A stretch of 64,000 nt of DNA, taken from NCBI GenBank assembly GCA_963931865.1, contig OZ007517.1, positions 10,116,038 to 10,180,037 on the forward strand, read 5' to 3'. Below the pieces are notes generated by a model, which was not told the DNA's origin, did no database searches, and saw only the letters and a program-made list of their open reading frames with translations. The number at the start of each line of letters is the position of its first letter. The first letter of the stretch is position 1. The translations under genes were made by a program, and so were the position numbers. This document shows, piece after piece, positions 9,732 through 64,000 of the stretch. The DNA is from Axinella damicornis. Taxonomy: Eukaryota; Porifera; Demospongiae; Axinellida; Axinellidae.

Positions 9732-9861
9732 CTACGCATTATCTTCCTTCTCCTTCTCTTCACCCGTACTGCCATCATCTGCTTCTGTTGCCTGTGCCTC
9801 ATACTCCATTGCTATTGGGTTTTGAATGTGAGCTCCTACCGGCTTGGTAGCTGCAACATGG
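9732..9861 (-). CDS. Cytoplasmic tail exon (second cassette)
   Basis: Phase 2 in, 43 codons to TAG. It contains ATKPVGAHIQNPIAMEYEAQ and an acidic Lys/Glu-rich end. Conserved with 18866-18992. Confidence 0.75.
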
Positions 9862-12302: not shown

Positions 12303-12333
<31 letters not shown>

Positions 12334-18865: not shown

Positions 18866-18992
18866 TCATCTTCCTCCTGGAATTCGCCTGTTACCGTCAT
18901 CATCTTCTTCTGTCCTCTGTGCATCATGCTGCATTGCCATTGTCATTTGATTTAGAAAGATAGCTCCTCCATACTTGGTTGGTGTGCCTTGG
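18866..18992 (-). CDS. Cytoplasmic tail exon of the giant receptor
   Basis: Phase 2 in, 42 codons to TGA. It contains GTPTKYGGAIFLNQ and the acidic RTEEDDDGN. It aligns with the tail at 9732-9861 (TK..GA...N...M...AQ..E.DD), which supports both as real coding ends. No ITIM is present. Confidence 0.75.
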
Positions 18993-21900
18993 CTGAAGCA
19001 TAGTAATAATTATTATTTTTGCACAGAAAGGCATTCCTACTACCTCACTCACCTCCAGTCTGACCCCCTCACCTTTTTTCCTTGCGCAAGTGGCGTTTCT
19101 TCACACAAATGACAATGACAAGGATGAGGAGTAGGATGACGACTATGATGACGAAAAGGAGTACTGCAAGTACTAGAAAAGCATTATATATATCTCCACC
19201 AGAACTGCAAGGCATACAACCTGTCGGTGTTGCAGTAGGTGCTGGAGGTGAAGAAATTTCACTGGATAATAATTCATTATTGATACAAGAATAGTCCTGT
19301 GCCTAGACCTAGGTTACAATGCATGGGACTACTACCTACTAGGAAATGCCATGCACCGTAAACTTGGATTGTGCAAATGCTACACTCAGGTTAGAAACTC
19401 GGTGTTTTATTTTACATCTTTGAGGAGTGCTTTACCTGTTGTGAACATAGAACACCCAAAAGGTGCCAAAACACCCCCATGCACTTTTAACATGCAGTGA
19501 GGAGAAAATATGGGCCTAGCACACTACATACACTTGATAACTTGATTATGTGACTTTTCAAAAATTAACAACTATTACTGGTCCTCATGAAAGTATTGGA
19601 GCCCAAGAATGGCAAGTGTAGCCACATTACCATAACAATTTTTCTGTCAGGGCACAGGACTAAAAGTTAATGTCAATATCCAAATTTGTCTGCACTGAAC
19701 CTGCTTCAGTATATCTTTGTACCATACTTGATTTTTAATTGGTCCATTAGATGTTGTTTATTTCACTGATTACACACCTCCGATTCACTTCTGTTTGGCT
19801 GTTTTGCAACATTCTGGCTTGTACTTTCTTTCACAATGTATTTTTTTGCCACTAGGAACATATATGGAGGTACTGATACTGGAGGATGGATATTGATACC
19901 AGAGGGACGCGGAATGGAGAATGGTAGTATGGAAAACACATACCCTGATTGGCACTGTCAAAGAAGTATGGCTCAGCTGGCTCAGGTCCCTGGCCGACAT
20001 CATTCTCTGCACGAATGTAGACTTGGTAGGTTGTTACTGGGGTGAGCCGTGAGAGAATGACCATTCCTGTGAATACAGACATCTGTGTTGGTGTCTCCTG
20101 ACAGATGGCATTGACTGAGGGGCAGAAAGTAATGTTGTAGGAGTTAATGCGGGCATTGTTGTCTTCTGGCGGAACCCAAGTCAACTGCACTGTCTGCAAG
20201 TTGAGAAGCTCTCTGGTCACGATGGTGTGATTCACTTCATCTGGAGGGGCTGGAAGAGAAGAGCTGCATCCTTATAGCCACCCAAGGTCTATTTTGTAGA
20301 ACAGGTATCAAATAGAGTGAGCATATAATATAGTTTGACATATCATTTACACAAAGATATTCCACTCACCTTGCACCACCAGCGTGAAGTTCTGTTCCAT
20401 CAGTCCAATGGAGTTGTTAGCGACACAGACATACACACCTGAGTCATTTAGCATCAGATTTCCAAGTGTGTACTGTACAGTGACCGTGCGTGAGGTTCCC
20501 AACGCACTGTTCAGCACTGTGTCCCCTCCCTCACTCCTCCTCCTGATCTCAACAAACGTGGCAGGTGGTACTGCGTCTGATCTGCACATGAGAAGCAGAC
20601 TAGTGGCTACATCCCGTCTCACCACTCCTGATAGAAACTGCTGAAAAACTGGAGCAACTGGATTGGAAGATGAAGAGTGATGATATAATTATACACATCA
20701 AATCAGATATCTCTGCACTAGATTCTACATTCTAACTAACCTTAGACTACTCCATAAACAAGCAGCCTTGTCGCTTCAGATTTATCAAAAAAGCATAAAT
20801 TAAGCTTGCTAGTGGAATGCAGGATAATGTGGGGTGAATGAGCAAGACATATACAGTTGTTGCAAGCACACAACTACACTACACAATATCATGGGATCTC
20901 AGACTGTATGTGTACAGTAACTGTTGTAATGAGGTGTATACATTTGGACAACAGAGTTGACAGGCTGAAGCAACAAAAGGTGTATTACATGCTGTGCATC
21001 AGTGGAATAGGGTTACACAGGAGGTCGTGTACCTATCTAGTGTACCGTATACATGGACCAGCTGAAAGCACTCTCACAACAGCAGATATTAGCCTTGGGA
21101 GACCCAAGCATAGCTACTAAAATACAAGTGCTGCTCCATTTCTGTTGCTGCCCATATCACTTGTAGTCATTGATGAACAGATGGCATGGACAGATGAAAG
21201 CACGTTGGCATCTTTGCTGCCATGCAGCAGCCCCCATCACTGAGCTGGTGGTCTCTGTCTGCATTGCACTTTCATATATGAATTCACCCATGAATCAAGA
21301 AAGTATATTGGTTATTGGGGTGAGACTGAGCGAGCCCTGCACTAGTATGTAGTAGCTACATGGAATTTCTCTGGACCATAGACAATATAGACCACAAGTT
21401 TTATTATTTCTCTAGCTTAGCGCTATGCGGAAACTTTCCGCTTGCATCAAAAATGACACTGATTTCTCGATGACTCAATGACAACAATTATGAAACTTTA
21501 ACGTCGATGGGCATTCTTCAATGGCTACAGTGATGTAGCTATATATTATGTTCTGCTCTCAGCACAATGTGTTGGAACAGTGTGCAGCATGTATACACAC
21601 CATGTGTGATGTCTCTCCACAATGTATATGCACTGTACAAGGGCGGGAAGACCAACTGAGTATACCTGTAATTACTGCATGCTATTGCAACAAACCTGAG
21701 TTTGCTGCAGTAATGGTCACAGCATATAACCTACTGGCATAATAGTCAATGCTTTTCCCCTTCAAACAACATGAGTGTACATACAGTAAACACACTGGCT
21801 TGGAAAGTTAACACACTGGTTGCAATGGCTGCTGCTACTGCAGTGGCTGCAGTATAGTGGCTAACAGGTAGTTGAATAACAGTCTACATGCTGATGCACA

Positions 21901-24900
21901 GAGCGAAAGTATCAGGCAGAACCCCATGCACTCTTCTTTAAGTTGGGTTTGGGCATGTGAGCCTACATCTAGGCTCGTTCAGGCTGACCCCATGCAATTA
22001 GCTACCCAGTCCTTGCACAGAATACTTACACTGGACAGTAACACTTGCAGTGGCAATGATGCCCTCAACAATGTCTCTGTTGGTCACTGTGCAACAGTAC
22101 TCCCCACTGTCACTGTCCGCCACCTCCATCACAACCAGCTCACTGCTGGCTACCCGTGTGGCACTTTCACTGGTGGAGTTGATTGTAATGCGCCCAGAGG
22201 GGGTGATGCCACGACCATCTTTGTACCAGTAAAACTCCAGGTCATTGGAAGCATCGTTGTTGTTCTGTGCAACACATTCTAGGTTGAGATCAGTGCCCAA
22301 GGCGAGGGAGACAGGAGAACGAGGTGTCTCAAGGAAGGTGGGGCCTGGAGGGAGATAATTCTACTGTAAACAGAGTGATGACTTGCATGTGTTGATATGA
22401 AACAGTACAGTACTTATCACAACACTTTCTATACTGCCACCCTCTAGTACTCTCACCTCGTGTGTCAAGAGCTGCAGTGCCATCCCCTACACTACTGCCA
22501 TTGATGCTGGCAAAGCAAGTGTAGCTCCCTTCGTCCCTCATGCCCACATTGCTGATGATCAAGGTGGGCGTGTCCTCTCCACTCACACGGGATACGTTAT
22601 AAAAGCCTATTTCCACCAGTGCACCATTTGCACCAATCTCTGTCCTGTTCCAGCGGTACAAGATGTAACTTGGCCCCACAGCACTGCAGTTGAAGGCTGT
22701 GTTAGTTCCCAGAGTCACTGTGCGGTCTGGAATGTTACCAACCTCTGGAGACAAAAGGTAGCACATTATAGAGCTAGAGATCAGACTAAAGGTTTACAAG
22801 TTGGAGTCACATAGAAATCCTATTGCAGTGGCATTTTATTTGTAATTTATTATCCTTCAGAACTGACCAATCAGAGCAAGGGTGGCTTGATGAGTACCAG
22901 CACTTCCTCGCTCATTGCTGACACTGCACGTATAAACTCCACGGTGATTGCTACCCACATTGGTCAGGCTCAGGGTGCTGGTCTCACTTCCATCTTGGGC
23001 ATTGAATCGTGTCTGCACAGAACATGGCACACCCACTGGGGCAGTTGTCGTCCATGTGAATGCCAGAATACCCTCTCCAGTGGCAGTGCATGTGAATTCA
23101 ATAGCACTCCCACTTGCTACTGTTACACTTTGTGGTGGTATAGTAATAGTCGGAGGGTCAACTGAATGGGAGGTACAAAACATGGAAGTAGATCTGCTTG
23201 TTATTACCATGATGCGCAGTGTACTATATTTTCCACTGGAAAATACAGCATCAGAAATAGTGCTCCATAGATTTTGCAACAAACCAGTTAAAGTACCGCT
23301 TACGCTCGTGCAATACGGAAAATATTCACATGGGAGTGGTCTCAAGGTAATTGTAACACTTGGCTTCGCCTCGTGCTATATTAGCCTCTCAACCACACAC
23401 TTTTGCAATATTTCTCGTAGTGCACTTGCTGCAGTACTTTAACTAGTATATATGGTATTGTTCAGTCACTCACACAATGTGAAATTAGCAGAGCTGGAAG
23501 TGACACTGCCTGCAGCATTAGACACCACACAGCGATAACTATTGGGATCTGATATCATAACATTCTGAATGGTAAGACTCTCATCATTAATAACAAATCT
23601 GCTATCACTGGGGAGTGTAGACCCATCCCCCTGCTCCCAGGTGTAGACCAGCTTCAGTCCAGTGGCAGTCACACTGAATGTCACGTTATGACCGGGAATG
23701 ACACTGAGGATGTCCAGTGGATCTGTGATGATTGTTGGAGGGTCCACTGCAGGAGGAGGGGAAGGACATTAGTGTGGACCCCACATGTGCATAGTCTGTG
23801 ATTCATATTCTACATGTACTTACAGATGGTGAGCTGAGCAGGATCTGAATTCACACCGCCACCGTCATTGGTTACGATGCAGCTGTAGTTTCCCTCGCTG
23901 CTCTCTTGGACATTGCTAAGGGTCAGAGTGCGAGTGGTGGTGCCATTAACTTCTGTTTGTGATGGCAACAAATTGCCGTCTAGCTGCCACTGGTATATTA
24001 GTGGTCCGATGGCTGTAGTGGCAGTAACAGTGAATGTCACTGATGATCCAGGGTCCACATTCAACTGGTCAACTGGCTGCTGACTGATCTGAGGAGGATC
24101 GACTGGAGGAGGGAGAGGATGATGGATGATTACTATTTAAAAGATGTGCGCACACGTACACACAAACACATGCACAGGCACACACACACACACCATGCAC
24201 ATATGCACAACATCTACTTAGGTATGTAGTGTTGCGTACGGAGAGTCAACTCAGCAGCACTTGATGTGATGCTGTCCACAGCATTAGTAACAACACAGGT
24301 GAAGTTGCCCTCATCCTCTCTCATGACAGCCATCACACTCAGAGAGGGAGTGGTGGAGCCACTGTACTTGGTACCATCAGTCAAGTTCATTCCAATTCTC
24401 TGCCATTGATAGGTGAGGTCACTGCCATTGGCCTGAACTGTGAACGTGACATTTGTCCCTGGGATTACATTCTGTTGAGTAGTAGGGTCAGTGACGATGG
24501 CTGGACGGTCAACTGTACATTCATGGAGAGGGACATATGCACATCTAAACTGTACTTTTGCAGAATTTTATTATTGGACATACCTATGCTCAGAGTTGCT
24601 GTACTTTGACCCAGCATAACAGCACTGTCATTGGAGTTCAGACTCAAAGAGAGCAACTCAGCTACCACCTCATTCGTGCTGTCAGACACTATTGTAATGT
24701 CCTCACACACATGTCGCACTCCACTGTTGAAGGTCTGCTCTTGTGTCATGGGGGTGTAGTCACCTGGAGCTGGATGTATTGCACAAACAATAAATAGACT
24801 GACCCATACAATAGCTGTGGAAGAGAGATTTACCTACAGCAGTGCCATCACCAGCACAGAATGTCACTACAATATCTCGTGCCAGCTGTCCAGTTATGGT

Positions 24901-48900: not shown

Positions 48901-51900
48901 CACACACGTCTCACTCCACTGTTGAAGGTCTGCTCTTGTGTTAGGGAGGTGTAGTCACCTGGAGCTGGATGTATCACGCAAGCAATTAATAAACAGCCCA
49001 TACATTAGCTGTGGAGGAAAGAGTTACCCATAGCAGTACCATCAGCAATAGAGAGTGTCACTACAATATCTCGTGCCAGCTGTCCAGTTATGGTAACACA
49101 CACAGACACAGAGCCAGCATCTTCAGCCACAAGGTAAGAAGTGTTCTCGAACCCAACCCACACAGCTGAAACAATGGAAGACAGAATATTAATATATATG
49201 AAGCATCTTTCAGTCAAGGGGGAATTAATCTAGTTTGCAACAGCCTTTTATAATAGTACCATCAAATAGTGGAAAAATAAAATCTGCAGCACATGTTGCC
49301 AACTCACTGTCTGTGTCTTCAATTCTGATCCTAGCAGTAGCTGGGTTTAACATAGCTGCAGGATCAGCTGAGACCAGAGTTACATTGATGAATTCAGGAT
49401 CTTCAACTACATTGTCATCCAGAATGGGCACCACTACCACTTGAGTTGATACAGTGGCATCGAATGTCAGGGTGCTGGTCACACCAGTGTAATCCATCCC
49501 AGCTGGAGAGGTGGGAGAGGAACATTGTGTGAACTGTTCCCTGGACCCACGATGCGTTCTGTTTCTAAAAGACTTACTCATGGCTGTACTAACCTGATAC
49601 CGTCAGGAAAGTGACCACCATACTTCTGGCCAATTCTCCATTCAGCACTTCAACAGTGACACTCGTATTGCCAGCATCTTCCTGAACAGAATAGGTTGCT
49701 GGGTTGAATCCAATCGTGACCACTGAAATAGGAAAAGAAATCAATCTGAACACTGTATTGCAGTACACTTACTTAAAACAGCTCCTTGCAGAATTGCAGA
49801 AAACTGATGGTTATAACTTACTATCAATATCTACAACAGTGATATTGGCAGTCGCCGGGTTCAATGTGACGGCAGAATCATTTGATATCAAGGATAGGAT
49901 GAAATATTCAAAATCTTCCACTGTCAGGTCATTGAGAACGGCTACCATCACCGTTTGCGTTGGCGAGGAGGCATTGAATGTCAGGTTGATGGCAATATCT
50001 GGAAAATCCATGCCTGCTATAGATTGATGGATGAAGATTACAGATGACTCCAAGTTACTAACCCTATGCAGTGAAACTCACACATAGCCGTGCCATCCAA
50101 GGTCTGCAGAGTTACTACAACATTTCTGGCCAGTATTCCATTCAGCAAAGATACAGCCACACTGACACTACCTACACCTTCACTCACAGTATAGGTTGTT
50201 GGGCTGAATCCAATTGTAACTCCTAATTGAAGTGGGAAAGGAGTCATGATGTACCAGCTACACTCATCCATACACATATTATAGGTATTAGTATAGCAGT
50301 TAATGTGATGTTCCATGCCTCACTATAACAGTAGCTTAAGCATATACAACTATAATAGAGCTACTTGCCATCATTATCTTCAATAGCGATCACAGCATTT
50401 GCTGGGTTTAATATGGCGGCAGAATCAACCGATGTTAGTGTCACATTGATAGTCTCAGAATTCTCAAGAAAAACGTCCTCAAGTATGGGTATTATGACAA
50501 TTTGAGATGATGTGGCAGTATTGAATATCAGGTCGCTGCTTGTGACATCGAAGTCCACCGTAGCTAGGGTGATGAGAAATTGCCTCATGAACACATGAGC
50601 ACTACAAACATATACAGAAGAAATCCCACCTGTTGCTGTACCATCACTGAGAGATGTTACCATGACAACAGAAACACCTCTGGCCAGAGTTCCACTTAGC
50701 ACACCTACAGTAACACTAACACTGCCTGCATCTTCAGTCACTGAGTAGGTTGCTGGGCTGAATCCAATTGTAGCCACTGAATTCAGAAAGAATTAGGTAG
50801 TTAATCTGGATCCGCCACCACAGATTTGTGTGAAGATTACTCACTATCATCATCTTCAATGGTGACATCAGCAGTTGCTGGGTTGAGCACAACAGCAGAG
50901 TCAGTTGACATCAGGACAGCACTGAACGACGTGAAATATGCCACCATCATGTTATCAAGAATGGGAATGGTCACCATTTGAGTTGATATGCCAGCACTGA
51001 AAGTGACATCAGTTGATACATGAGTATACTGCATTCCAGCTGCAGAGATGAATAATACAAAGATACTATTAAGCTTAATTAACAGAATACCAGCTCTTCT
51101 ATGCTTTCAGTAACTCACGCATAGCAGTGTTACTCATGGTTGTCATGGTTACTATGACATCTCGGCCCAGGGTTCCAACCTGCACAGACAGATTGACACT
51201 GACACCGCCTGCATCTTCACGAACAGAATAGGTTGCTGGGTTGAATCCGATTGTAACCACTGGATTGGTGAACGTGGTGTGCACAAGGTATGAGTCATAG
51301 TTAAAATGAATGGTTTTGCCGAATAGTATTTGTTATTTCAGCATAATATTATGTGCGATGCCAAGAAAATGCTTCTGTTCAAGATATGTTCATACTGTAG
51401 CCACATGCAATTCTCTACTAAACAATACCTAATATGTAACTTCCGGGCTGTTGCAGTTGCAGTGTAGCACACTTTACACTTAAACTCCCTGAGTTCTGGG
51501 GATTTGTAGTTAGTGATGTGCTAAGTGATGTGTTATGTATATAGAATCTTGGTGTCAGCTGTTCATAGCTGAGTGACTTGTGCACGTAAATTTCAACTGA
51601 CCTTACCAACAATCATTAAACCTATGTTGAGGTATTGAGGTGTACTCACTGTCTATATCTTCAATGGTGACGGTACTATATGATGGGTCCAGAATGACGC
51701 CAGGGTCAGTTGACATCAGGGTCAGAGTGAACATCTCGGAGCGCTCAACAATGAGATCATCAAGAATGGTTATTGTCATTGACACAGCGGCCGCATGATT
51801 AAAGGTGAGGTTTCTCGATACAGCAGTGTAGTCCACTCCAGCTATGTTTATGTAGAGGTAACAAATATTATAGCATCCATGTAAGCCCCAGAATTAATTG

Positions 51901-54900
51901 TATCATAGATAGTATTCAGTGACCAATCAGAGCGCTATATTAGGCATCCGTTATAAGTGCTTAGTTTGTTGCATTTAATCTATTCTATGCCTGTCTTATC
52001 ATTTTGTGTTCAAAGGCCCCACCCATAGCTGTGCCATCTGACGTTGATAGAGTCACTGAGACATCTCTGGTCAAGGAATTCATCACCAGTACAGTGACCG
52101 TAATGCTGGCAGCATCTTCATGCACAGAATAGGTTCCAGTGAATCCAATTGTTACCACTGAAATAGAAAAAATATTTAACAATATTCTGATATACCTATA
52201 CACAACCAATGGCTGGCTAAAACTGTGGAGTTAACTCACTGTCATTATCATCTTCAATTGTAACAGTAGCAGTCACTGGATTCAAAATGACAGCTCGATC
52301 AGAAGTCCTCAGATTCATGAAGAAGTACTCAAACTGCTGCTCAACTACATCATCATTTCGAATGGTCACAGTCACTGTTTGAGATCTGGTTGCATTACTA
52401 AAGACCAGTGATCTGGTTGAAGCTGCATAGTCAGCTGGAGCTGGGGAATTAGAATTAAGTTATAATAGCTACTTACTGTGAATAACCAACTATAGGTATT
52501 AACTAAGGTAGCTTTGCTGAATATCACAGAGTCGGTAGACTCTGTATGTAGGGATACGACGTACACGCAATATATGGTAATACAAAAGAATCTCTCCAAA
52601 TCAGGCTCAGAAACGGTACACTTATAAGCCTTTATAACCACATACCGTTCATCTTCGGGTGTTTTCATGACCAACAAGACTCCTCGCATCGCGAAAAACC
52701 GTCGCGAAAGTACCACACCAGGTACTCGCAAAACGAGCAAATTGTTTTTCTTTCTTCTTCTTTCTTCTTCTTTCTTCTTTCAGACGGGCTAGCTCAACGT
52801 CGCCTCAATCCCTCATGATGGTTTTCGCACGAAACAGCAGCATTTTACACCGAGCAGTGCACCAGCCCATCGCTTTTTGGCAACCTCCAAGTCTTCACCA
52901 GGCGGCTACAGCTGCCCACTCAATAACTATGGCTTCATTTGTCACGCCATTTTCATGTTTGTACGCATGCGCACTTAAACAATCACTTAGCAACGATACG
53001 TAATTATTATTCAAGATCGCTGAATTAGAAGTGCCTTGCGCTGTTGTGCTACTGTAGCTAGACTGAGGTAAATTCTCTGTGCTATATAATTATGTTACTT
53101 TATAGACTGTGTTCTGTGAGAGGGGTGAATGCCTATCTAAAGACTCAACAATGTGTCGCTACTACTATCTGGTATAGCTATTTTAGCTACACTATACTTA
53201 GTCTTAGCTATGGTCTTCAGCTCGGGGAGCACTGGCTTAGTATCCATCCAGAAAAGGGTTGGCTTTTGAGATGCTTGGGTCTGATTCTTGCTGGCAGTGT
53301 AAATGCCAGAGTCCAGTATGCATGCGCCTGCTGCCAAAAAAAATGACATAAACAAGTAATAAAAAACATTTAACATGTAACAGGATGTAGGGATACCAGA
53401 ACCGCAAAAAGTAAGGAAACAAGGTAGGGATGATCACAGAAAACTGTGAAGTATACAATCCCCCTACATATCTTTTTTCATTATACACGTACTATGGAAA
53501 AAGATCTCTGTAGGGGGTTGTATACTTCACTGTTTTGTGTGATCATCCCTACCTTGTTTCCTTACTTTTTGCGGTTCTGGTATCCCTACATCCTGTTACA
53601 TGTTAAATGTTTTTTATTACTTGTAGTATGTATACATTCACTACAAACCTCACTACGTGTATGTATAAGTCAAAGTTTTATTCACCCCGGCAAAAGCATG
53701 AAGGTTGCACATCACTAGTCAGTCTAGTCTTGCCCACCGAACCCCTATATTATTATAGACTACTTCCATACCGGCAGACAGTCACAAATCTTAATGTATT
53801 GATGCATGTGCATGCATGGAGGCACTAAGCAGACTGTGTTGTGTGAAGTCCCATGCATGCATGCGCAGCAGGGGTTACGTAAGCAATGCCTGTGTGTCTG
53901 TCGGCTAAAATATACTTCAAGCAGGTTAGCTAAGGCATTTACAGACGCTATACTCGACACAAAACAATGAACATAATAATATTTTGGACATTTCTGTACA
54001 GTGGAACCTGTCTAATGCGGTCACTTGAGGGCCAAATATATTTGGCCTCATTAGAGAGGTGGCTGGAATATACTATATAGCGGTCGTGTGAAGTTTTAGT
54101 GTGATTGACCTCATTACAAAGTGAAACTGAACAACTTCGATTCAAGTAAGTTCCATGAAGAAATAACTTAGGACTTTAAGTATTGTAAAAAAAGAATGAT
54201 TGTTTCATTTTTTGTGTGTTCAGTTTGGCACTTTCTGTAATGTTAAACGCACACGCGCACTCGCTGGCCATTATTGGCAGTGTACTATAGCGTGTTATAG
54301 CATGCTTGGGGTGGAGCAACATGACCACATTACGCATTACACAGGTGACCGCTATAGAATGACAGTAAAGTATGGAGACTATGGGCTCAAATTTCGGGAC
54401 TTTCCCAAGCTGACCGCAAAGCAGAGGTGACCGCCTTATTCAGGAGACCGTTAAGGCAGGTTTCACTGTACCTAATACAAGTCAGGGCAGTTCTTTTCGC
54501 TGTTATTTCAGCTACGGTTGCTTGGCTCCGCCCATTTTGTAATCGCACGTGGCATCATCGATCCCACAATATACTGGTACTGCACGCACTGAGGCGCAGC
54601 ACAAGGCATGCAGGGTATTCCATGAGAATACATTCTAGTTCTTTGTATCTAGGTAAGTACACAATGTCTTGGCATTCAGTGTTAATTATTATTCATGATC
54701 GTGCCGTGCGGTTCTATGAAAAATGTCTGTAGTATACGTTCTATGGGCACTCGGTCTGGTTGTGTATTGAAATCGCACCTAGCCTGCTGCCTCACGCAAT
54801 GCTTAATTGGCTTTGACCATGAGTAGTGATATTGCATTTCTGCTCCACAAAAAGGAATATGCACTAAGCTTTTTGTTACTCACCATGGTCTTGAGCTGTG

Positions 54901-57616
54901 GCATCCATGGTGTACACTGTTACAGCAACATTTCTGGCCAGGGTTCCATTATGTATGCTTACAGTGGCACTGACACTGCTGTTATCTTCACCTACAGAGT
55001 ACACTGGGCTGTCGAATCCGATTGTAACCCCTGGAACAGCAGTTAGAATAATGCATGTGAAGCAATTAGTGTTGTATGCAACCATAAGCAGCATATTTGC
55101 AGTAAATTGCCCATAATTAACTTACTGTCATTATCTCTAATCCTGACAGAGGCAGTTTGTATGCTTAGTGTGACAGCTGGATCAATTGCTGTCAGGGTCA
55201 CATCGAAACGCTCAGAGTCGCTTTCAACAATCTCATCATCCAGAATGGGTATTGTTACCACTTGAGTTGGCATGGAAACACTGAATGTCAGGGTGGTGTT
55301 TATGGCTGTGTAGTCCATCCCAGCTTGATAAATGAGAAATACATACATCCATAGTTGGTGAAACTCTAAGCTGACATTTCGGAATAATTATTTAAAGTTG
55401 AGTTGCACAACATTCAGAAAGGCTAACTATTTGTGTAACAGCCTTACCAATGGCTGAGCCGTCTTCAGTCTGCAGATTTACCATCACATCTCTGGCTGGA
55501 GTTCCTCTCAGTGTTTCTACAATGACACTAACATTGCCAGCATCTTCATTTACATAATAGGTGGCTGGACAAAAGAATCCAATTGTTATCCCTGAATATA
55601 GAAGATAAATATCATGGTTATACAGTCTGCTTACCACAAATTGCAAGTCTGTATACATATTAGCGATGTATATGGAGTAACTTACCATCTTCATCTTCAA
55701 TGGTGACAGTTGCAGCATCTGGTGCCAATGTAACATTCGGGTCAGCTGTTGTCAGAGCCACATTGAAGAACTCAGAGCCCTCGACAAGAAGATCATCAAG
55801 GATGAATACTGTCACCATTGTTGTTGGCATGGTTGCACCCAATGTGAGATCAGTGGTCAGTGGTGTGTACTCTCCTCCAGCTGTGGAGATGAATGCACTT
55901 AGCATAATGCCCCACGCATGAGGGAAGCGAGCTAGTGCATGCCACAGTGCCTTCATAGTCCTGATTATTTTATTCATGGCCTGGTAGCTACATTTGTAAC
56001 TATATTCACTTCTGAAGGATGGCCCCAGACTAAATTCTATGATTATCTTTGTCTTGCTAATGGTCTTCGTGTGGAAACCGCACTACTGGTAGCCAGCGAT
56101 GCAACTCACAGGAAGCACAAGCTAAGCAGCTATTGCAGCTTGTTCCAATTAAGTGGCACACATGTCATGTGACTACCATGTTCAGTCGATTGAATCAGCA
56201 ATGGCCATGGCGTAATCTCACACCCAGCTGGAAGCAACGGCAGCTCTCTTGATACTCGTTAAAGAAAATTCCACACCGGAATTTGAGACTGCCAATAGAA
56301 ATACTGCATTGCTATGAAGGTGGTGCTTCCATTGGGCATGAGACTATAGTGCTCCTCACATACCAATTTCATGTTGGTTGTCCAAAGAACAAACCACTGA
56401 AACATGAATTGACCAATCTTGTTCTGCATAATTTGATTTTGGTGCTGAAACTAGTTCATTAGACCATGTGCAAGGAAGAGAGTAGGGTGCACCTTGGGAC
56501 ATAACACTACTCTATCTATTTCTTTCTTCTCTCTCTCTCTCTCTCTCTCTCTCGATCTCTCTCTCTCTCTCTCGTACCAAGCAGTTTCAAGAGCCCTACC
56601 TGCAGCTGTGCCACCAGCATCTGTCAATAGAGTCACTATGACATCCCCCACTGGTGTTCCACTCATCACAGACACACTGATGGTAACATTGCCGGCATCC
56701 TCACGCACAGAATAGGTTGTTTGGTCGAACCCAATTGTAACTAATACAATAGTGGGATAAGAGCAACCATTGCAGTTGTCCAGCATAACAGAGTTCACCA
56801 GCTCAAGTCTACAGCACATACACACTGCATGCATGTATTACTAATACTTAATTGTTAAGCATTGGACTTTAATTGCTAAGTGCTGCAGTTCATTCATCAA
56901 TATAGACCTGGCAGATACGTATGAAACATTGAATGTCAGTCTGCAGTGGGAAAATGTATGTCGTTTGCTCATGTTTGCTCCGACAATTTCCTACATTCAC
57001 ATCTATAGTATAGTTAGCTACACCTCAGACTGTCATAGACGTGACAAGAACTGAACATTCGGGCTTTTGAATCAATGGGAGTATCATCTCCTATGAATTC
57101 CAGATTCAAGGAGCTGAATTCCTGTGGAGTTGATCATGAATTCATACTTCAACTCAGCATGGGGTCACTTCCACTGTAATGCAGAGGCACTAAGCCATCA
57201 CAAACACACAATGAACAGTCCACATCTATGCACTCCATAACTGTGCAACCAATAGTAGTGTACTAATTACCAGTGGTAACAATAGCAGTGGAACCCCCGA
57301 CAACACATTACAGACTAGAGACACCGTCTCACTGAAAGGTGCTGTATTGCCAAGTTCAAATTTCAGATCTTTGAGGAAGCGCTATGAAGGCTATGAACTA
57401 CTATGTCTCCCTTCGTTTACATGTATACGTTAGAGATAGTCTAATGCGTATTAAACTGCAGGGCATTTTTTAACTCAGACCTCGAGCACACGCACATTAA
57501 TTCTCAGATACGCCCATGAATTAAACTGGTAATTTACAGCTACCTTGTGTCCGGACACTGCCGAAGGCAATATAGAAGAGAACCAGCTGCAGTAGTAGCA
57601 CCCCTTCCCTCAGCAT
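18866..57616 (-). CDS. Giant Calx-beta/Ig/FN3 transmembrane adhesion receptor (91-exon model)
   Basis: Starting at the ATG at 57616, I can join 91 exons with GT-AG (one GC-AG) borders into 17,064 coding nt, ending at TGA 18866-18868 (about 5,687 residues). Order: signal peptide, Calx-beta 1-9, three Ig, five Calx-beta, three Ig, five Calx-beta, two Ig, two Calx-beta, then fifteen Calx-beta, seven Ig, one FN3, TM helix and a 45-residue tail. Each Calx-beta repeat is split into exon A (strands up to TxDGTAxG) and exon B (acidic PILDD..VE.SE.F core and IEDxD end). Exons are symmetric phase 1-1. Calx-beta domains bind Ca2+, so a calcium-dependent adhesion or recognition role at the cell surface is likely. 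No Wreath or VWA region of sponge aggregation factors is seen. A single transcript is not proven: the repeat order resets at 36.5 kb, where two gene copies may be joined, and alternative splicing is easy with such exons. Confidence 0.6.
19073..19241 (-). CDS. Transmembrane exon of the giant receptor
   Basis: After a Thr/Pro and CMPCSSGG juxtamembrane stretch comes a helix containing AFLVLAVLLFVIVVILLLIL, followed by CVKKRHLRKEK. The phase changes from 1 to 2. It is homologous to the exon at 10130-10304. Confidence 0.85.
19944..20249 (-). CDS. FN3 domain of the giant receptor
   Basis: One 306-nt exon (phase 1-1). It begins APPDEVNHTIV, with VQLTWVPPEDNNARINSYNI, TTYQVYIRAENDVG and a C-terminal GPEPAEPY: the FN3 Trp, Tyr and N-x-x-G landmarks. 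The 700-bp intron that follows contains none of the further FN3 exons seen in the second cassette. Confidence 0.85.
20370..23161 (-). CDS. Ig domains d, e, f, g
   Basis: Exons are d 22868-23161 (DPPTITIPPQ, EFTCTATG, YTCSVSN), e 22457-22744 (GNIPDRTVTLG, FNCSAVG, YTCFASI), f 22030-22344 (TDLNLECVAQN, EYCCTVTN) and g 20370-20657 (VRRDVATSLLLMC, VYVCVANN). These four have both canonical cysteines. The 1.37-kb intron between f and g (20658-22029) shows no recognisable gene. Confidence 0.85.
23474..24512 (-). CDS. Ig domains a, b, c (fourth block)
   Basis: Exons are a 24240-24512 (DRPAIVTDP), b 23824-24102 (DPPQISQQP) and c 23474-23746 (DPPTIITDP). All have the C-strand Trp and F-strand Cys and no B-strand Cys. 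Confidence 0.85.
24584..24971 (-). CDS. Calx-beta repeat 36 (type 9)
   Basis: Exon A is 24834-24971 (VGFENTSYLVAEDAGS, FCAGDGTAVG). Exon B is 24584-24769 (PGDYTPMTQEQTF, RHVCEDITIV). The last Calx-beta repeat before the membrane-proximal Ig/FN3 part. Confidence 0.85.
25111..25526 (-). CDS. Calx-beta repeat 35 (type 8)
   Basis: Exon A is 25383-25526 (SRRTYSVREDAGSISV). Exon B is 25111-25305 (MDYTGVTSTLTF, ILDDNVVEDSEF, IEDTDS). The phase-1 donor here could join either type-9 exon A, at 24971 or at 16898. Confidence 0.85.
25600..26043 (-). CDS. Calx-beta repeat 34 (type 7)
   Basis: Exon A is 25903-26043 (STTSYTVSEDEGSVSV, ending GAAMS). Exon B is 25600-25797 (MDFPNISIHLTF, ILNDMVPEDLEYF, ILDDIDS). 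Confidence 0.85.
26158..26574 (-). CDS. Calx-beta repeat 33 (type 6)
   Basis: Exon A is 26428-26574 (NPATYSVAEDVGSVNV). Exon B is 26158-26352 (LDYSFTSSDLIF, ILEDTVLESSETI, IQDNDG). Confidence 0.85.
26644..27042 (-). CDS. Calx-beta repeat 32 (type 5)
   Basis: Exon A is 26902-27042 (NPATYSVREDAGSVSV, QDETLDRDV). Exon B is 26644-26838 (MQYTHVPANIIF, ILDNIIVADPMSF, IEDDDS). Confidence 0.85.
27134..27575 (-). CDS. Calx-beta repeat 31 (type 7)
   Basis: Exon A is 27435-27575 (SPTTYTVSEGVGSVSV). Exon B is 27134-27331 (MDFSNISIDLTF, ILNDMVPEDSEYF, VLDDIDS). Confidence 0.85.
27666..28085 (-). CDS. Calx-beta repeat 30 (type 6)
   Basis: Exon A is 27936-28085 (SPDTTYTVAEDTGSVNV, one residue longer than its sisters). 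Exon B is 27666-27860 (LDYNFTSSNLIF, ILEDMVLESSETI, IEDNDG). Confidence 0.85.
28155..28602 (-). CDS. Calx-beta repeat 29 (type 5) with internal duplication
   Basis: Exon A is 28462-28602 (SPATYSVCEGAGSVSV). Exon B is 28155-28394, 240 nt instead of 195, because its first 15 residues are duplicated: AGIQHMNISTDVISN is followed by AGTQYTHVSTDVAFN. The core is ILDNMTVADSTFF. Confidence 0.85.
28633..29184. mobile_element. 552-bp MITE with AAACA duplication
   Basis: It begins GTAGGGCTATGCGATAAT and ends ATTATCACCCTGCCCTAC (imperfect inverted repeats). AAACA lies directly on both sides (28628-28632 and 29185-29189). No ORF of transposase type. It sits in the intron between repeats 28 and 29. Confidence 0.7.
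29250..29686 (-). CDS. Calx-beta repeat 28 (type 7)
   Basis: Exon A is 29546-29686 (STTTYTVSEDVGSVSV). Exon B is 29250-29447 (TDFRNISIDLTF, ILNDMVPEYLEYF, VLDDINS). Confidence 0.85.
29953..29973. repeat. Poly-C tract
   Basis: About 21 consecutive C in the intron between repeats 27 and 28. Confidence 0.95.
30557..30982 (-). CDS. Calx-beta repeat 27 (type 6)
   Basis: Exon A is 30836-30982 (NPATYSVDEDVGSVNA, VLCGTLARG). Exon B is 30557-30751 (VDYDITSSNLIF, ILDDPVLESSETI, IEDNDG). The following 0.87-kb intron holds a C homopolymer. Confidence 0.85.
31046..31443 (-). CDS. Calx-beta repeat 26 (type 5)
   Basis: Exon A is 31303-31443 (VGFNPATYSVREDAGSVS). Exon B is 31046-31240 (TQYTHASTDVTF, ILDNMVVADSTLF, IEDDD). 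Confidence 0.85.
32014..32448 (-). CDS. Calx-beta repeat 25 (type 4)
   Basis: Exon A is 32311-32448 (VTIGFIGTYSVREDAAS). Exon B is 32014-32208 (VDYTAVSRSLTF, ILDDLIVEHSEMF, IEDIDS). Confidence 0.85.
32531..33451 (-). CDS. Calx-beta repeat 24 (type 3)
   Basis: Exon A is 33305-33451 (TIGFNSSVYSVNEGTTSVS). Exon B is 32531-32734 (SDYTAFTRSLAF, IRDDNVVEQQFEYF, IEDDDS). Confidence 0.85.
33534..34633 (-). CDS. Calx-beta repeat 23 (type 2)
   Basis: Exon A is 34490-34633 (ITIGFYCPATYYVNEDAG). Exon B is 33534-33740 (MDYTAVTTTLTF, ILDDQIVESYYNSHQYF, IRDNDS), three residues longer than its sister because of the YYNSHQ loop. Confidence 0.85.
34002..34060. other. Possible transposon terminus in an intron
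   Basis: CAGTGGCGTATCTATGGCAG resembles terminal inverted repeats common in animal hAT-type elements. I could not find a matching opposite end nearby, so it may be a fragment. The rest of this 750-bp intron shows nothing else. Confidence 0.3.
34728..36529 (-). CDS. Calx-beta repeat 22 (type 1)
   Basis: Exon A is 36389-36529 (AIGFDQTTYSVLEDAGSV). Exon B is 34728-34922 (GGEYTPLTTDLTF, ILDDVLVEGSEFF, IEDEDG). The intron is 1.47 kb and contains only unrecognised short ORFs. This is the type that directly follows the signal peptide in the other two genes. Confidence 0.85.
37021..37170 (+). pseudogene. Possible Crypton/tyrosine-recombinase N-terminal fragment
   Basis: A plus-strand ATG (37021) reads MAKRLGGAERFANVTDEDIA, then KDSKNTKKATKAAV, then a stop. 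One base later, another frame reads VFENYLKY. The KDSKNTKKATK..V..F..YL pattern is familiar from the N-terminal region of Crypton-derived recombinase-like proteins (KIAA1958/QRICH1/ZMYM type). Assignment is from memory and the fragment is short. Confidence 0.4.
37226..37377. mobile_element. 152-bp near-perfect palindrome
   Basis: The arms start AAACAATTATTGCACGCTTC and end with its complement; the centre is GGCCTTCGGCC. A few bases differ between arms (a GATATCC/GATATCAAGA segment). Fold-back MITE or cruciform sequence. Confidence 0.75.
38435..38860 (-). CDS. Calx-beta repeat 21 (type 6)
   Basis: Exon A is 38714-38860 (NPTTYSVSEGIGSVSV). Exon B is 38435-38629 (MDYSITSSDLIF, ILDDTVLESSETI, IEDDDG). 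This is the last repeat before the order resets; the donor is GATG|GTCAGT. Confidence 0.85.
38930..39338 (-). CDS. Calx-beta repeat 20 (type 5)
   Basis: Exon A is 39198-39338 (DPATYSVREDAGSVSV). Exon B is 38930-39124 (MEYTPVSTNITF, LIDNMIVADSTLF). Near-identical to repeat 15. Confidence 0.85.
39608..40275 (-). CDS. Ig domains a and c (third block, b missing)
   Basis: Exons are a 40003-40275 and c 39608-39880. The DPPQ-type domain b found between them in the other blocks is absent; only a 122-bp CA-rich intron remains. The symmetric phase keeps the frame. Confidence 0.85.
40354..40731 (-). CDS. Calx-beta repeat 19 (type 9)
   Basis: Exon A is 40594-40731 (AGLENTSYLVAEDAGS, STVDDTAVG). Exon B is 40354-40536 (PGDYTPMTQEQTF). 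Exon B lacks three bases near its end compared with its sisters (GQSTTLSIG), an in-frame deletion. Confidence 0.85.
40799..40841. repeat. Tandem duplication, ~21-bp unit
   Basis: GGAATCTTACGGTCTAGGGA occurs twice in a row in the intron between repeats 18 and 19. Confidence 0.85.
40958..41375 (-). CDS. Calx-beta repeat 18 (type 8)
   Basis: Exon A is 41232-41375 (SRRTYSIREDAGSISV). Exon B is 40958-41152 (MEYADVTTTLTF, ILDDNVVEDPEF, IEDTDS). Confidence 0.85.
41449..41887 (-). CDS. Calx-beta repeat 17 (type 7)
   Basis: Exon A is 41747-41887 (STATYTVSEGVGSVSV). Exon B is 41449-41646 (GMDYPNISIDQTF, ILNDMVPEDLEYF, ILDDIDS). Confidence 0.85.
42044..42464 (-). CDS. Calx-beta repeat 16 (type 6)
   Basis: Exon A is 42318-42464 (NPAAYSVAEDAGSVSV). 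Exon B is 42044-42238 (MDYSITSRDLIF, ILEDTVLESSETI, IEDNDS). Confidence 0.85.
42532..42940 (-). CDS. Calx-beta repeat 15 (type 5)
   Basis: Exon A is 42800-42940 (NPATYSVREDAGSVSV, VQDGIQDRDVLV). Exon B is 42532-42726 (MEYTPVSTNITF, LIDNMIVADSTLF). Almost identical to repeat 20, introns included. Confidence 0.85.
43120..44184 (-). CDS. Ig domains a, b, c (second block)
   Basis: Exons are a 43912-44184, b 43466-43744 and c 43120-43392, with lengths identical to the first block (273, 279, 273 nt). Domain b has a changed loop (IFLPSREEVNG). The B-strand Cys is again absent in all three. Confidence 0.85.
44271..44657 (-). CDS. Calx-beta repeat 14 (type 9)
   Basis: Exon A is 44520-44657 (AGFENTSYLVAEDAGS). 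Exon B is 44271-44456 (PGDYTSLTQEQTF, VTIVHYSTNEVVAEMF). The intron upstream of exon A matches the one upstream of 16898 until the minisatellite begins, so this repeat is the closest seen relative of the second cassette's start. Confidence 0.85.
44865..45264 (-). CDS. Calx-beta repeat 13 (type 8)
   Basis: Exon A is 45121-45264 (SPATYSVHEDAGSIGL, TAAGGTAMG). Exon B is 44865-45059 (MDYTGVTTTLTF, ILDDNVLEDSEF, IEDIDS). Confidence 0.85.
45331..45744 (-). CDS. Calx-beta repeat 12 (type 7)
   Basis: Exon A is 45604-45744 (STTSYTVSENEGSV). Exon B is 45331-45528 (MDFQHVSFDPTF, ILDDMTLEDFEYF, VVDDLDS). Confidence 0.85.
45908..46329 (-). CDS. Calx-beta repeat 11 (type 6)
   Basis: Exon A is 46183-46329 (NSATYSVSEGVGSVIV). 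Exon B is 45908-46102 (MDYSITSRDLIF, ILDDPVLENSETI, IEDNDS). Confidence 0.85.
46398..46802 (-). CDS. Calx-beta repeat 10 (type 5)
   Basis: Exon A is 46662-46802 (SPATYSVPEVAGSVSV). Exon B is 46398-46592 (KQYSPISTDVTF, IVDNMMVKVSTLF, IEDDD). The EDAG motif has become EVAG, one of the more diverged copies. Confidence 0.85.
47033..48701 (-). CDS. Ig domains a, b, c (first block)
   Basis: There are three one-exon Ig domains: a 48429-48701 (DRPAIVTDP, YQWQRNG, EGNFACVVTN), b 47379-47657 (DPPQITQQP, YQWQLDG, EGNYSCIVTN) and c 47033-47305 (DPPTIITDP, YTWEQGD, NSYRCVVSN). All keep the C-strand Trp and F-strand Cys but have no B-strand Cys. All are phase 1-1. The a-b intron carries a 600-bp insertion. 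Confidence 0.85.
47704..48303. mobile_element. 600-bp insertion flanked by TTAA
   Basis: The matching intron of the next block (43780s) reads straight through CTTAAAGACTG. Here CTTAA occurs at both ends of an extra 600 bp. TTAA duplication suggests a piggyBac-type event, but I see no clear terminal inverted repeats. A 61-codon minus ORF inside is unrecognised. Confidence 0.55.
48779..49165 (-). CDS. Calx-beta repeat 9 (type 9)
   Basis: Exon A is 49028-49165 (VGFENTSYLVAEDAGS). Exon B is 48779-48964 (PGDYTSLTQEQTFNSG, RRVCEDITIV, ending LSIG). Type 9 always precedes the Ig block. It has a Cys in place of the ILDD stretch and lacks the acidic IEDxD end. Confidence 0.85.
49308..49722 (-). CDS. 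Calx-beta repeat 8 (type 8), shifted donor
   Basis: Exon A is 49594-49722 (NPATYSVQEDAGNTSV, ending FLTVS). The position homologous to the usual donor is preceded by a stop and a 1-nt insertion, but TCAG|GTTAGT upstream gives a 129-nt exon in the correct phase, five residues shorter than its sisters. Exon B is 49308-49502 (MDYTGVTSTLTF, ILDDNVVEDPEF, IEDTDS). Confidence 0.75.
49822..50222 (-). CDS. Calx-beta repeat 7 (type 7)
   Basis: Exon A is 50082-50222 (GVTIGFSPTTYTVSEG, ILARNVVVTL). Exon B is 49822-50016 (MDFPDIAINLTF, VLNDLTVEDFEYF, VVDIDS). Confidence 0.85.
50369..50776 (-). CDS. Calx-beta repeat 6 (type 6), GC donor
   Basis: Exon A is 50630-50776 (SPATYSVTEDAG, LARGVSVVM). Exon B is 50369-50563 (VDFDVTSSDLIF, ILEDVFLENSETI, IEDNDG). 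Exon B ends GATG|GCAAGT, a GC-AG intron, where all sister copies have GT. Confidence 0.85.
50845..51259 (-). CDS. Calx-beta repeat 5 (type 5)
   Basis: Exon A is 51119-51259 (NPATYSVREDAGGVSVNL, TTMSNTAM). Exon B is 50845-51039 (MQYTHVSTDVTF, ILDNMMVAYFTSF, IEDDDS). In this copy the usual acidic ..V(E/A)DS.. of the type is replaced by AYFTS. Confidence 0.85.
51650..52157 (-). CDS. Calx-beta repeat 4 (type 4)
   Basis: Exon A is 52023-52157 (VTIGFTGTYSVHEDAAS, STSDGTAMG). Exon B is 51650-51841 (VDYTAVSRNLTF, ILDDLIVERSEMF, IEDIDS). The type is marked by the short F-x-GTYSV loop. Confidence 0.85.
52240..55030 (-). CDS. Calx-beta repeat 3 (type 3), split by a 2.4-kb intron
   Basis: Exon A is 54884-55030 (TIGFDSPVYSVGEDNSSVS, ending AQDHG). 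Exon B is 52240-52440 (PADYAASTRSLVF, IRNDDVVEQQFEYF, IEDDNDS) and is open throughout, though it lacks an early Met. The unusually long intron contains two mobile elements. The equivalent intron in repeat 24 is only about 0.57 kb. Confidence 0.8.
52741..52782. repeat. TTC-rich low-complexity tract
   Basis: Repeats of TTCTTCTTTC lie in the intron before exon B of repeat 3. The adjoining ~200 bp is richer in CpG than its surroundings and I cannot assign it. Confidence 0.7.
53352..53624. mobile_element. Near-perfect 273-bp palindrome
   Basis: Two arms of ~117 bp (53352-53468 and 53508-53624) are reverse complements with a few mismatches, around a ~39-bp AT-rich loop. The same peptide can be read on both strands, showing that the ORFs here are palindrome artefacts. 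Probably a fold-back MITE. Confidence 0.75.
53999..54468. mobile_element. MITE with TA target duplication (pogo/Tc1-like termini)
   Basis: It begins CAGTGGAACCTGTCTAA and ends GGCAGGTTTCACTG, as terminal inverted repeats, and TA lies on both sides. About 470 bp long with no transposase. The termini resemble those of mariner/pogo-superfamily MITEs; that assignment is from memory of the consensus. Confidence 0.65.
55126..55591 (-). CDS. Calx-beta repeat 2 (type 2)
   Basis: Exon A is 55448-55591 (ITIGFFCPATYYVNEDAG). Exon B is 55126-55323 (MDYTAINTTLTF, ILDDEIVESDSERF, IRDNDS). The type is marked by a Cys-Pro insertion before the YxVxED motif. Confidence 0.85.
55686..56740 (-). CDS. Calx-beta repeat 1 (type 1)
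   Basis: Exon A is 56600-56740 (TIGFDQTTYSVREDAGNVT, ending GGTAAG). Exon B is 55686-55880 (GGEYTPLTTDL, ILDDLLVEGSEFF, IEDEDG). Lengths of 141 and 195 nt equal those of the type-1 repeat in the left paralogue. The intron between them holds a (CT)n microsatellite. Confidence 0.85.
56528..56573. repeat. (CT)n microsatellite
   Basis: About 46 bp of CT repeats, with one CGAT interruption, lie in the intron after exon A of repeat 1. Confidence 0.9.
56741..57543 (-). other. First intron, no feature seen
   Basis: This ~0.8 kb intron separates the signal exon from the first Calx-beta exon. I see no ORF of interest and no clear repeat in it. Confidence 0.6.
57544..57616 (-). CDS. Signal-peptide exon of the giant receptor
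   Basis: This 73-nt exon encodes MLREGVLLLQLVLFYIAFGS followed by VRTQ, a typical hydrophobic leader. It ends CACAAG|GTAGCT in phase 1. The signal exon of the left paralogue (8628-8700) has exactly the same length and the same VRTQ ending, which supports this start. The next exon joins as G|TTACAATTGG. Confidence 0.85.
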
Positions 57617-60477: not shown

Positions 60478-60709
60478 TTATTTAGGCATGGGTTCGTAAT
60501 CATAACCCACTTGTACAGTTTCATAACCATCATCTTCAACCTCCCTCATCTGCTGTCTTTCAAGCACTCCATAAGCTAAACATCGGCTCACTGAGACGTC
60601 TCCTCTTCCTTCTGCTGGATATGTGGCAAGTATTCCATAAGCCGTACATTCTGCCATTGGGATAATCTTGTTCTCAGAGGCTCCTCCAGATATGACACCT
60701 GCACCTGGG
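60478..60709 (-). CDS. Terminal exon with ITIM-like and YxxM motifs
   Basis: A phase 2 start at TTCAG|C is followed by 77 codons including TAA. Two near-repeated units (ECTAYGIL and RCLAYGVL) lie about 25 residues apart, then the acidic REVEDDGYETV and a C-terminal YDYEPM. These spacings resemble tandem SH2-docking sites. Function is inferred from motifs only. Confidence 0.6.
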
Positions 60710-63700: not shown

Positions 63701-63929
63701 AATACCGTCCTCCTCCACTCACAGTTTGACCAGTACGGCCTGCATTACTTCTTATAGAACCCTGCTGCCATTGTATTGCAAAGTTATAAGAGATTGCAGT
63801 CACTAAACATGCAATTTTCAGATGGTCTGCACCGACTGGATTGCAGGTGGCCAAGTCTGGGTTTGTCCATGGTTCCTGATGGTACTGATGTGTACACTGA
63901 GCTGTAGTGTATATGGACAGCAATAACAT
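60478..63929 (-). CDS. V-type Ig transmembrane receptor with tyrosine-motif cytoplasmic tail
   Basis: This is a cell-surface receptor coded on the minus strand. Exon 1 (63056-63929, phase 1 out) encodes a short hydrophobic leader and one V-like Ig domain with Cys41, Trp54 and the DLGYYWC motif ending at Cys111. A Ser/Thr/Pro-rich stalk follows, then a transmembrane helix at about residues 259-282 with KRRR stop-transfer residues. An in-frame stop just upstream supports the ATG at 63929. The last exon (60478-60709, phase 2 in) ends in TAA. It carries TAYGIL and LAYGVL (the latter fits the ITIM consensus), DGYETV and YEPM (a YxxM, PI3K-SH2-type motif). Two candidate middle exons, 62870-63005 and 61106-61148, both change phase 1 to 2, so either can join the ends in frame. 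Domain calls are firm. The linking of tail exons is inferred, and an upstream exon outside the window cannot be excluded. Confidence 0.7.
61106..61148 (-). CDS. Candidate 43-nt alternative cytoplasmic exon
   Basis: The exon has a good acceptor (TTGCAG) and a donor (AAG|GTATAA). Read from phase 1 it gives STAVSTIGNISGR and leaves phase 2, which matches the last exon. If it is used together with 62870-63005 the frame is lost, unless a 7-nt microexon (61052-61058) and a 5-nt shifted acceptor are also used. Exclusive use of the two exons is therefore the simpler reading. Confidence 0.35.
62870..63005 (-). CDS. Candidate cytoplasmic exon of the Ig receptor
   Basis: The exon is flanked by AG and GTGAGT. 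In the frame set by exon 1 it is open and gives a hydrophilic stretch containing MKEKDEPNALW. A nearer AG at ~62973 would give a shorter exon in the same frame. It changes phase from 1 to 2, which fits the last exon directly. Confidence 0.5.
63056..63929 (-). CDS. Receptor exon 1: leader, Ig-V domain, stalk, TM helix
   Basis: The open frame of 291 codons ends at AAAG|GTTAGT. The Ig fold is supported by the B-strand Cys in LKIACLV, the C-strand Trp in AIQWQQG and the F-strand motif LTINNITAEDLGYYWC. Several Cys residues follow in the stalk (residues ~130-175). The leader is short (about 12 residues), so signal-peptide function is only probable. Confidence 0.8.
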
Positions 63930-64000
63930 TGATCAAGGTTACCTACCATACAGGAAAAATCATCAATCAAAAATTATAGTTGAAATGGGATCGAATGAAG

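Follow-up and report, generated by a model that had tools for sequence, protein, structure and literature searches.

The locus analysed here raises two questions: does its minus strand encode one giant protein built of Calx-beta and immunoglobulin (Ig) modules, and what kind of protein would this be in a sponge? The window, i.e. the whole 64,000-nt stretch of Axinella damicornis DNA under study (contig C13, positions 10116038-10180037), is free of N and belongs to a 226-Mb assembly of 120 contigs. An initial annotation, made from the sequence alone, had proposed a single open chain of symmetric modules running from a signal peptide at 57616 to a stop codon at 18866. Unless a contig is named, positions are those of the window, and positions beyond its limits lie in the flanking DNA.

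Exon structure of gene 1

Our own model of this chain, called gene 1 (minus strand, 57616 to 18866, a span of 38,751 nt), contains 91 exons with a coding sequence of 17,034 nt, which encodes 5,677 aa without any internal stop. The continuous chain and the exon count of the initial annotation were thereby reproduced, and only its exact length (17,064 nt, about 5,690 residues) was not. Phase 1-1 was found for 88 exons, in agreement with the symmetric modules proposed earlier; the first exon is of phase 0-1, the transmembrane (TM) exon of phase 1-2, and the tail exon of phase 2-0. All 90 acceptors are AG, and 89 donors are GT, the sole exception being a GC donor after exon 13 (50367..50368, minus strand), which gives one GC-AG intron among 90. 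Introns range from 61 to 2,449 nt, with a median of 91 nt.

The exon-chain finder combined splice PWMs with codon log-odds, was seeded on Calx-beta-like and Ig-like stretches, and was retrained four times, the training DNA being the same strand on which it then made its predictions. When run without phase preference, it chained 97 exons, of which 90 were of phase 1-1 and 85 were exactly as in the final model. A second run, with a penalty on phases other than 1-1 and on exons shorter than 70 nt and with GC donors permitted, chained 91 exons, all 1-1, a rule that is partly built into this run. Two weak exons, at 30362 and 21846, were then removed by judgement, and the first exon (57616-57544) and the tail exon (18992-18866) were added by hand, which again gave a total of 91. 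The end of the TM exon was shifted by hand to a later donor, whose likeness to the donors of the paralogues was judged by eye. The final model departs from the unbiased run in six exons, namely the first, the TM and the tail exon and exons 2, 13, and 14, for which a phase-1 donor, the GC donor, and an acceptor, respectively, were chosen.

Scored against the trained matrices, the donors all reach at least 0.5 (median 6.7) and the acceptors at least 2.6 (median 7.5). Strong exons (phase 1-1, score at least 18) numbered 88 on the strand of gene 1, none on the opposite strand, and none in each of five dinucleotide shuffles; because the finder had learned from these exons, this control is a sanity check and yields no unbiased P value. 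The model is further supported by homologous exons in two more genes of the window and by dN/dS values below 1 between copies. Homologues of the signal peptide, the module classes, the fibronectin type III (fn3) exon, and the TM exon are all encoded in the window and its flanks. For tail exon 91, tblastn found no copy in the window below E 0.7; it is supported by its likeness, by eye, to the acidic tails of genes 2 and 3 and by an AATAAA 31 nt past the stop codon.

Domain composition

Modules were sorted by their best exon matches among genes 1, 2, and 3 into nine Calx classes (C1-C9) and Ig classes A to G. The features of gene 1, all on the minus strand, are the following.

18866..57616 (-): gene 1, 91 exons
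57544..57616 (-): exon 1, start codon and signal peptide, phase 0-1 (homologue at 8700-8629, 58% of 24 aa)
48779..56740 (-): exons 2-19, Calx-beta C1-C9, two exons each (Pfam, exon comparison)
47033..48701 (-): exons 20-22, Ig A, B, C (Pfam)
44271..46802 (-): exons 23-32, Calx-beta C5-C9, second block (Pfam, exon comparison)
43120..44184 (-): exons 33-35, Ig A, B, C, second block (Pfam, exon comparison)
40354..42940 (-): exons 36-45, Calx-beta C5-C9, third block (Pfam, exon comparison)
39608..40275 (-): exons 46-47, Ig A and C, B missing (Pfam, exon comparison)
38435..39338 (-): exons 48-51, Calx-beta C5-C6 (exon comparison)
36530..38434 (-): 1.9-kb intron at the C6-to-C1 join, between exons 51 and 52
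29250..36529 (-): exons 52-65, Calx-beta C1-C7, second run (Pfam, exon comparison)
27134..28602 (-): exons 66-71, Calx-beta C5-C7 (exon comparison)
24584..27042 (-): exons 72-81, Calx-beta C5-C9, last block (Pfam, exon comparison)
23474..24512 (-): exons 82-84, Ig A, B, C, last block (93-95% DNA identity to Pfam-scanned Ig exons)
20370..23161 (-): exons 85-88, Ig D, E, F, G (Pfam, exon comparison)
19944..20249 (-): exon 89, fn3 (fn3 43.6 bits)
19073..19241 (-): exon 90, TM helix, phase 1-2 (gene 2 TM exon, 50% over 60 aligned positions, E 1.6e-9)
18866..18992 (-): exon 91, short acidic tail of about 42 residues, TGA (likeness by eye, AATAAA)

Exon pairing and Pfam together yield 36 Calx-beta domains, 15 Ig domains, one fn3 domain, and one TM helix, and the earlier count of 36, 15, and one TM was confirmed. 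The Calx-beta domains are formed by 72 half-exons, so that each is interrupted by a phase-1 intron. The Pfam scans covered aa 1-1300, 1301-2872, 2873-3781, 3782 to about 4808, and 5083 to the end, leaving out about aa 4809-5082. In these pieces, 9, 10, 8, and 10 Calx-beta stretches (37 in all) were found against 36 exon pairs, and the one too many falls in the piece that contains exon 67, whose length exceeds that of its relatives by 45 nt and which carries a short internal duplication. There were 3 + 5 + 4 = 12 Ig_3 stretches for the 12 scanned Ig exons and a single fn3 stretch, and the three kinds of domain called without profiles in the initial annotation were thus recognized by Pfam. Exons 82-84, outside the scanned pieces, are 95, 94, and 93% identical in DNA to their best scanned matches.

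In a structure search with one Calx-beta module, all eight matched structures were Na/Ca exchanger domains (E 1.3e-5 to 2.1e-3), which are the Ca2+-binding domains of these exchangers. At least two acidic residues lie within the last six residues of 32 of the 36 modules, the exceptions being the four C9 modules. Among 25 of the 26 Pfam families listed for the C-terminal 595 aa there was neither an enzyme domain nor a 7TM or GAIN family. Across the genome, most of the Calx-beta matches listed begin near position 51 of the profile and span only its second half, and for this reason the two-exon Calx-beta domain looks general in this genome.

Phase symmetry had also led to the proposal that any number of modules could be added, lost, or skipped. 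This is correct for the reading frame and for gain and loss by DNA duplication, but not for whole Calx-beta domains: because each of them consists of two exons, only even runs of Calx exons leave domains whole. That gene 1 yields many isoforms through exon skipping, as the initial annotation had suggested with adhesion or self-recognition in mind, seems to us rather unlikely. The 88 exons of phase 1-1 would permit it, and the loss of an even number of Calx half-exons would keep whole or hybrid domains; however, phase symmetry is usual in extracellular modules and explains genomic shuffling without any alternative splicing, and the splice sites fit the trained matrices, as described above.

A tandem cluster of related genes

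Gene 1 is one of five related genes that form a same-strand tandem cluster of about 107 kb. Two of the others lie in the window (16.9-9.7 kb, and 8.7 kb to beyond base 1) and, like the block structure and the tyrosine-tailed neighbours upstream, had not been described in the initial annotation. The genes and neighbouring features are listed from high to low coordinates.

104.8 to about 80 kb (-): gene A, Calx, Ig, fn3, and TM, with a tyrosine-rich tail at 80180-79962; partial model
about 71.5 to 67 kb (-): gene B, Ig, fn3, TM at 68435, and a tail-like exon at 67435-67124; partial model
63932-63051 (-): short upstream receptor, Ig domain and hydrophobic helix (reading frame)
60705-60484 (-): short upstream receptor, tail exon rich in tyrosine (70% identity to the gene A tail)
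9735..16898 (-): gene 2, C9, Ig A-G, at least three fn3, a juxtamembrane segment, TM at 10323-10132, and an acidic tail at 9860-9735; partial model
1..8700 (-): gene 3, signal exon at 8700-8629, C1-C9, and Ig D-G

We infer that the Ig-helix frame and the tail exon upstream of gene 1 join into one receptor (60484..63932). Tyrosine-rich tails are found in two neighbours of gene 1. No Calx-beta was found in the partial model of gene B. The TM and tail of gene 3 fall beyond base 1, with the tail ending near -2.1 kb; both thus lie in the 100 kb below base 1, where a search with the exons of gene 1 nevertheless yielded nothing at E 0.01. The juxtamembrane segment of gene A had no meaningful PDB match (best E 7.1) and no family above the cut-off.

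Further relatives of Ig G/fn3 were seen as fn3 matches at C13:8.252 and 8.295 Mb. Ig_3 matches at C13:10344091 and 10364605 lie on the strand of the cluster, 160-190 kb past the high end of the window. At about 77.4-77.8 kb, beyond the window, there are frames that resemble, by eye, a Delta-type Notch ligand (MNNL/DSL-like).

Block structure and selection

Read from its 5' end, gene 1 has the order SP, C1-9, ABC / C5-9, ABC / C5-9, A, C / C5-6 / C1-7 / C5-7 / C5-9, ABC, DEFG, FN, TM, tail. The block joins and the loss of Ig B fall between domains, and the 45-nt duplication of exon 67 falls inside an exon. Exons 48-49 are 98% identical to exons 36-37, and exons 50-51 are nearer to other copies. 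Between blocks 1 and 2, dS is 0.08 for the Ig triplets and 0.31 for Calx C7-C9. The copies within gene 1 are of mixed age, and the mosaic suggests repeated exchange through introns. The gene 1 family appears to grow by the copying of module blocks that are joined between domains.

Repeated or allelic copies could in principle have been assembled into false blocks, and some copies are indeed 93-98% identical, as alleles or mis-joins could be. We regard such an artefact as very improbable: the window is free of N, the block copies diverge unevenly (dS 0.08 to 0.31), and frame and splice sites are intact across the joins.

Between block copies of gene 1, dN/dS was 0.35-0.53 in eight comparisons, and the copies have therefore been kept as coding sequence under purifying selection. 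Compared with gene 2, dN/dS was 0.14-0.70 over 10 exons, and compared with gene 3, it was 0.23-0.49 over nine exons. Diversifying selection was considered and rejected, as dN/dS, taken as an average and not by site, was below 1 in all 27 comparisons (10 and 9 exons and 8 blocks); these values speak against pervasive diversifying selection, such as might act on a self-recognition ligand.

The ends of gene 1 and gene 2

Gene ends were searched for over 264 kb with peptides of genes A, 1, 2, and 3 (none of gene B) that represent the signal, TM, tail, and juxtamembrane segments and the second fn3. Signal exons were found at 57616 and 8700 only (E 0.5), and homologues of the TM exon at 80693, 68435, 19254, 10323, and -317. 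Weaker matches in the TM search, with E values of 0.001 and above, were located at 115775, -9549, 117597, and 7621, none of them inside gene 1. No second signal, TM, or tail exon was found between 57.5 and 19.3 kb, chance-level matches being restricted to DNA outside this interval or to the other strand. On the basis of these searches, a single gene between 57616 and 18866 is favoured over two, because no homologue of a signal, TM, or tail exon was found in its interior.

If two tandem genes had been read as one, the first would end near 38.4 kb and the second would start near 36.5 kb. Exon 52 restarts at C1 past the 1.9-kb intron, as a gene start would, and a start of the form SP-C1 is common to genes 1 and 3. 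The signal exon of gene A was also missed by the same search, so the silence of the signal search in this gap is limited evidence. We nevertheless consider two genes unlikely: at E 0.5 no copy of a signal exon was found in the gap, though the search did detect that of gene 3, whose C1 exon shares 90% identity with the one beside the gap; no TM or tail homologue was found between 57.5 and 19.3 kb; and both exons that flank the gap are of phase 1. A remnant 5' end in the gap was sought and rejected, as the alignment of the gap with genes 1 and 3 at their 5' ends (185 and 182 nt) is confined to exon C1 and about 43 nt beside it. The same intron contains, at 37223-37380, two nested inverted repeats with arms of 36 and 40 nt that are 97 and 90% complementary, possibly a small transposon.

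Gene 2 is recognizable only from C9 onwards, and the peptide search over 264 kb revealed neither 5' exons nor a signal exon for it. Its C9 exon directly follows a minisatellite at 16980-17975 (about 72 copies of a G+C-rich 14-bp unit), which looks like the site of a duplication boundary. The homology of gene 2 to the C9-Ig segment of gene 1 extends to 16970, within the intron that precedes C9. In a test over six exons, the branch of gene 2 showed 17 synonymous and 12 non-synonymous changes (omega about 0.23, P 1.1e-4), compared with 23 and 14 (0.20) on the branch of gene 1 and 23 and 36 (0.52) on that of gene 3.

Gene 2 might be an alternative 3' end of gene 1, reached by read-through and splicing to a second C-terminus with more fn3 domains and another TM and tail. 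The missing signal exon, the homology that starts in the intron before C9, and the constraint on the branch of gene 2 would all fit this. We find it improbable, however, since an AATAAA lies 31 nt after the stop codon of gene 1 and gene conversion could mimic the constraint; in addition, the C9 exon of gene 2 ends, by eye, 2 nt shorter than that of gene 1, and the usual donor would therefore break the frame. A simple 5'-truncated duplicate fits the observations too.

Comparison with known proteins

No animal protein with the architecture of gene 1 was present among the protein matches listed (120 of 414 and 120 of 269), in line with the earlier statement that the design matches no nameable architecture; candidates in these searches were limited by length and shared words, so that this absence weighs little. 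The matches listed had identities of 24-40%, and the named proteins among them were mostly bacterial Ig-repeat proteins. The few animal proteins included hemicentin, a Dscam-like protein, and two Amphimedon Calx-beta proteins, the latter two with Calx-beta models only. Calx-beta and Ig were combined in no protein of the first set (120 of 414), and in the second (120 of 269) they were combined at least in P0310, from Verrucomicrobia, and in P0315.

By domain content, the known proteins nearest to gene 1 are those of the sponge aggregation factor (AF) and ADGRV1 with regard to Calx-beta, and Ig/fn3 receptors with regard to its C-terminal half. AF acts in Ca2+-dependent adhesion, and its proteins carry Calx-beta arrays, with a Wreath domain and, in some members, a VWD domain. 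Gene 1 resembles AF in being a sponge protein with a Calx-beta array (36 pairs, Pfam), but it ends in a TM helix and a tail and contains many Ig domains, whereas AF is a secreted core without membrane anchor. VWD was found neither in the Pfam-scanned parts of gene 1 (aa 1 to about 4808 and from 5083 onwards) nor in the cluster, and its sole match on contig C13 is at 10.51 Mb. Its predicted TM anchor would place gene 1 outside the AF proteins. On contig C7, at about 2.2-5.2 Mb, Calx-beta matches are dense and include two weak VWD matches among them (2.498 and 3.241 Mb), and this region holds candidate aggregation-factor genes.

The adhesion GPCR ADGRV1/VLGR1 has about 35 extracellular Calx-beta repeats, EPTP, and GAIN/7TM. 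Its repeat number is similar to the 36 of gene 1, but gene 1 has one hydrophobic helix, as well as Ig and fn3 domains, and with no GAIN or 7TM family among those listed for its C-terminus it would fall outside the ADGRV1 type. In its order of Ig, then fn3, TM, and tail, gene 1 resembles Dscam, Sidekick, and receptor tyrosine phosphatases, none of which, to our knowledge, contains Calx-beta. Unlike receptor tyrosine phosphatases and kinases, it has no kinase or phosphatase domain among the families listed for its C-terminus, and its tail comprises about 42 residues. The Ig ectodomain, fn3, and single TM by which Ig superfamily adhesion receptors are recognized are all present in gene 1.

Two other genes of contig C13 can be compared with the cluster. 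A Calx-beta-only TM gene at C13:9.109-9.122 Mb (partial, its TM exon weakly supported) shares with gene 1 the 1-1 Calx-beta half-exons followed by a TM exon, but the chain found has no Ig or fn3 between Calx-beta and TM. Beside it, at C13:9124644-9137410, are Ig exons followed by about 20 exons that by eye are fn3-like, many of them near-identical, and then by a TM-like exon. By eye, genes A and 2 have a juxtamembrane segment like that of this Ig/fn3 gene (C13:9.12-9.14 Mb). Another contig, C120 (41 kb), is mitochondrial and carries COX1 in three pieces, with TGA read as W; these pieces are separated by frames that by eye are LAGLIDADG- and reverse-transcriptase-like, and there are many G+C-rich repeats. 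When joined, two of the COX1 exons show 91% identity to a UniRef cluster assigned to Demospongiae and 93-94% to four other entries, which points to a demosponge source.

In the excerpts returned by a literature search, the architecture of gene 1 was not found. AF is described as an extracellular proteoglycan complex in an excerpt of PMC6820919 and is also treated in an excerpt of PMC8380372. Calx-beta is among the domains in figures of Halichondria receptors, where the excerpt leaves partner domains unstated (PMC8242945), and an excerpted table includes two Calx-beta genes that are down-regulated following microbial exposure (PMC6208332). Excerpts of PMC11229196, PMC5450542, PMC13197933, and PMC12018476 were also compared. 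What is new here is the architecture of gene 1, together with a tandem family that reorganises by modules.

Proposed function

The product of gene 1 is probably a type I cell-surface protein, very long and crossing the membrane once, and is predicted from its domains to be a receptor in Ca2+-dependent adhesion or recognition. The protein would consist of a signal peptide, a Calx-beta rod broken by groups of Ig domains, a membrane-proximal stalk of seven Ig domains and one fn3, one TM helix, and a short acidic tail. By motif similarity, the 32 Calx-beta domains with an acidic end would bind Ca2+ and stiffen the rod. Because of this stiffening, the protein would reach far from the cell, by roughly 200 nm if typical domain sizes are assumed, where it may act in Ca2+-dependent adhesion or recognition. 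The short tail gives gene 1 no signalling route of its own, which counts against this reading; partners for signalling in the same system may be found in the neighbours whose tails are rich in tyrosine. Within the tandem array, exchange through between-domain introns would make length and module content vary between genes.

The locus may bear on the question of which receptors at the surface of sponge cells bind AF or convey information on self and non-self. A bolder and decidedly improbable proposal is that the C13 cluster is a candidate sponge recognition locus, whose giant Calx-beta/Ig receptors, altered in module number and order by between-domain exchange, would form haplotype-specific Ca2+-dependent rods with tyrosine-tailed signalling partners; a single transcription unit with two alternative C-termini could comprise gene 1 and the headless gene 2.

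Our findings place Calx-beta/Ig proteins that are long, membrane-bound, and subject to reorganisation in one compact locus, together with related receptors that have tyrosine-rich tails; the locus therefore provides named exons for tests of expression, haplotype variation, and binding. Gene 1 also illustrates a route by which an extracellular protein can come to exceed 50 domains, namely the reuse of one run of modules joined between domains.
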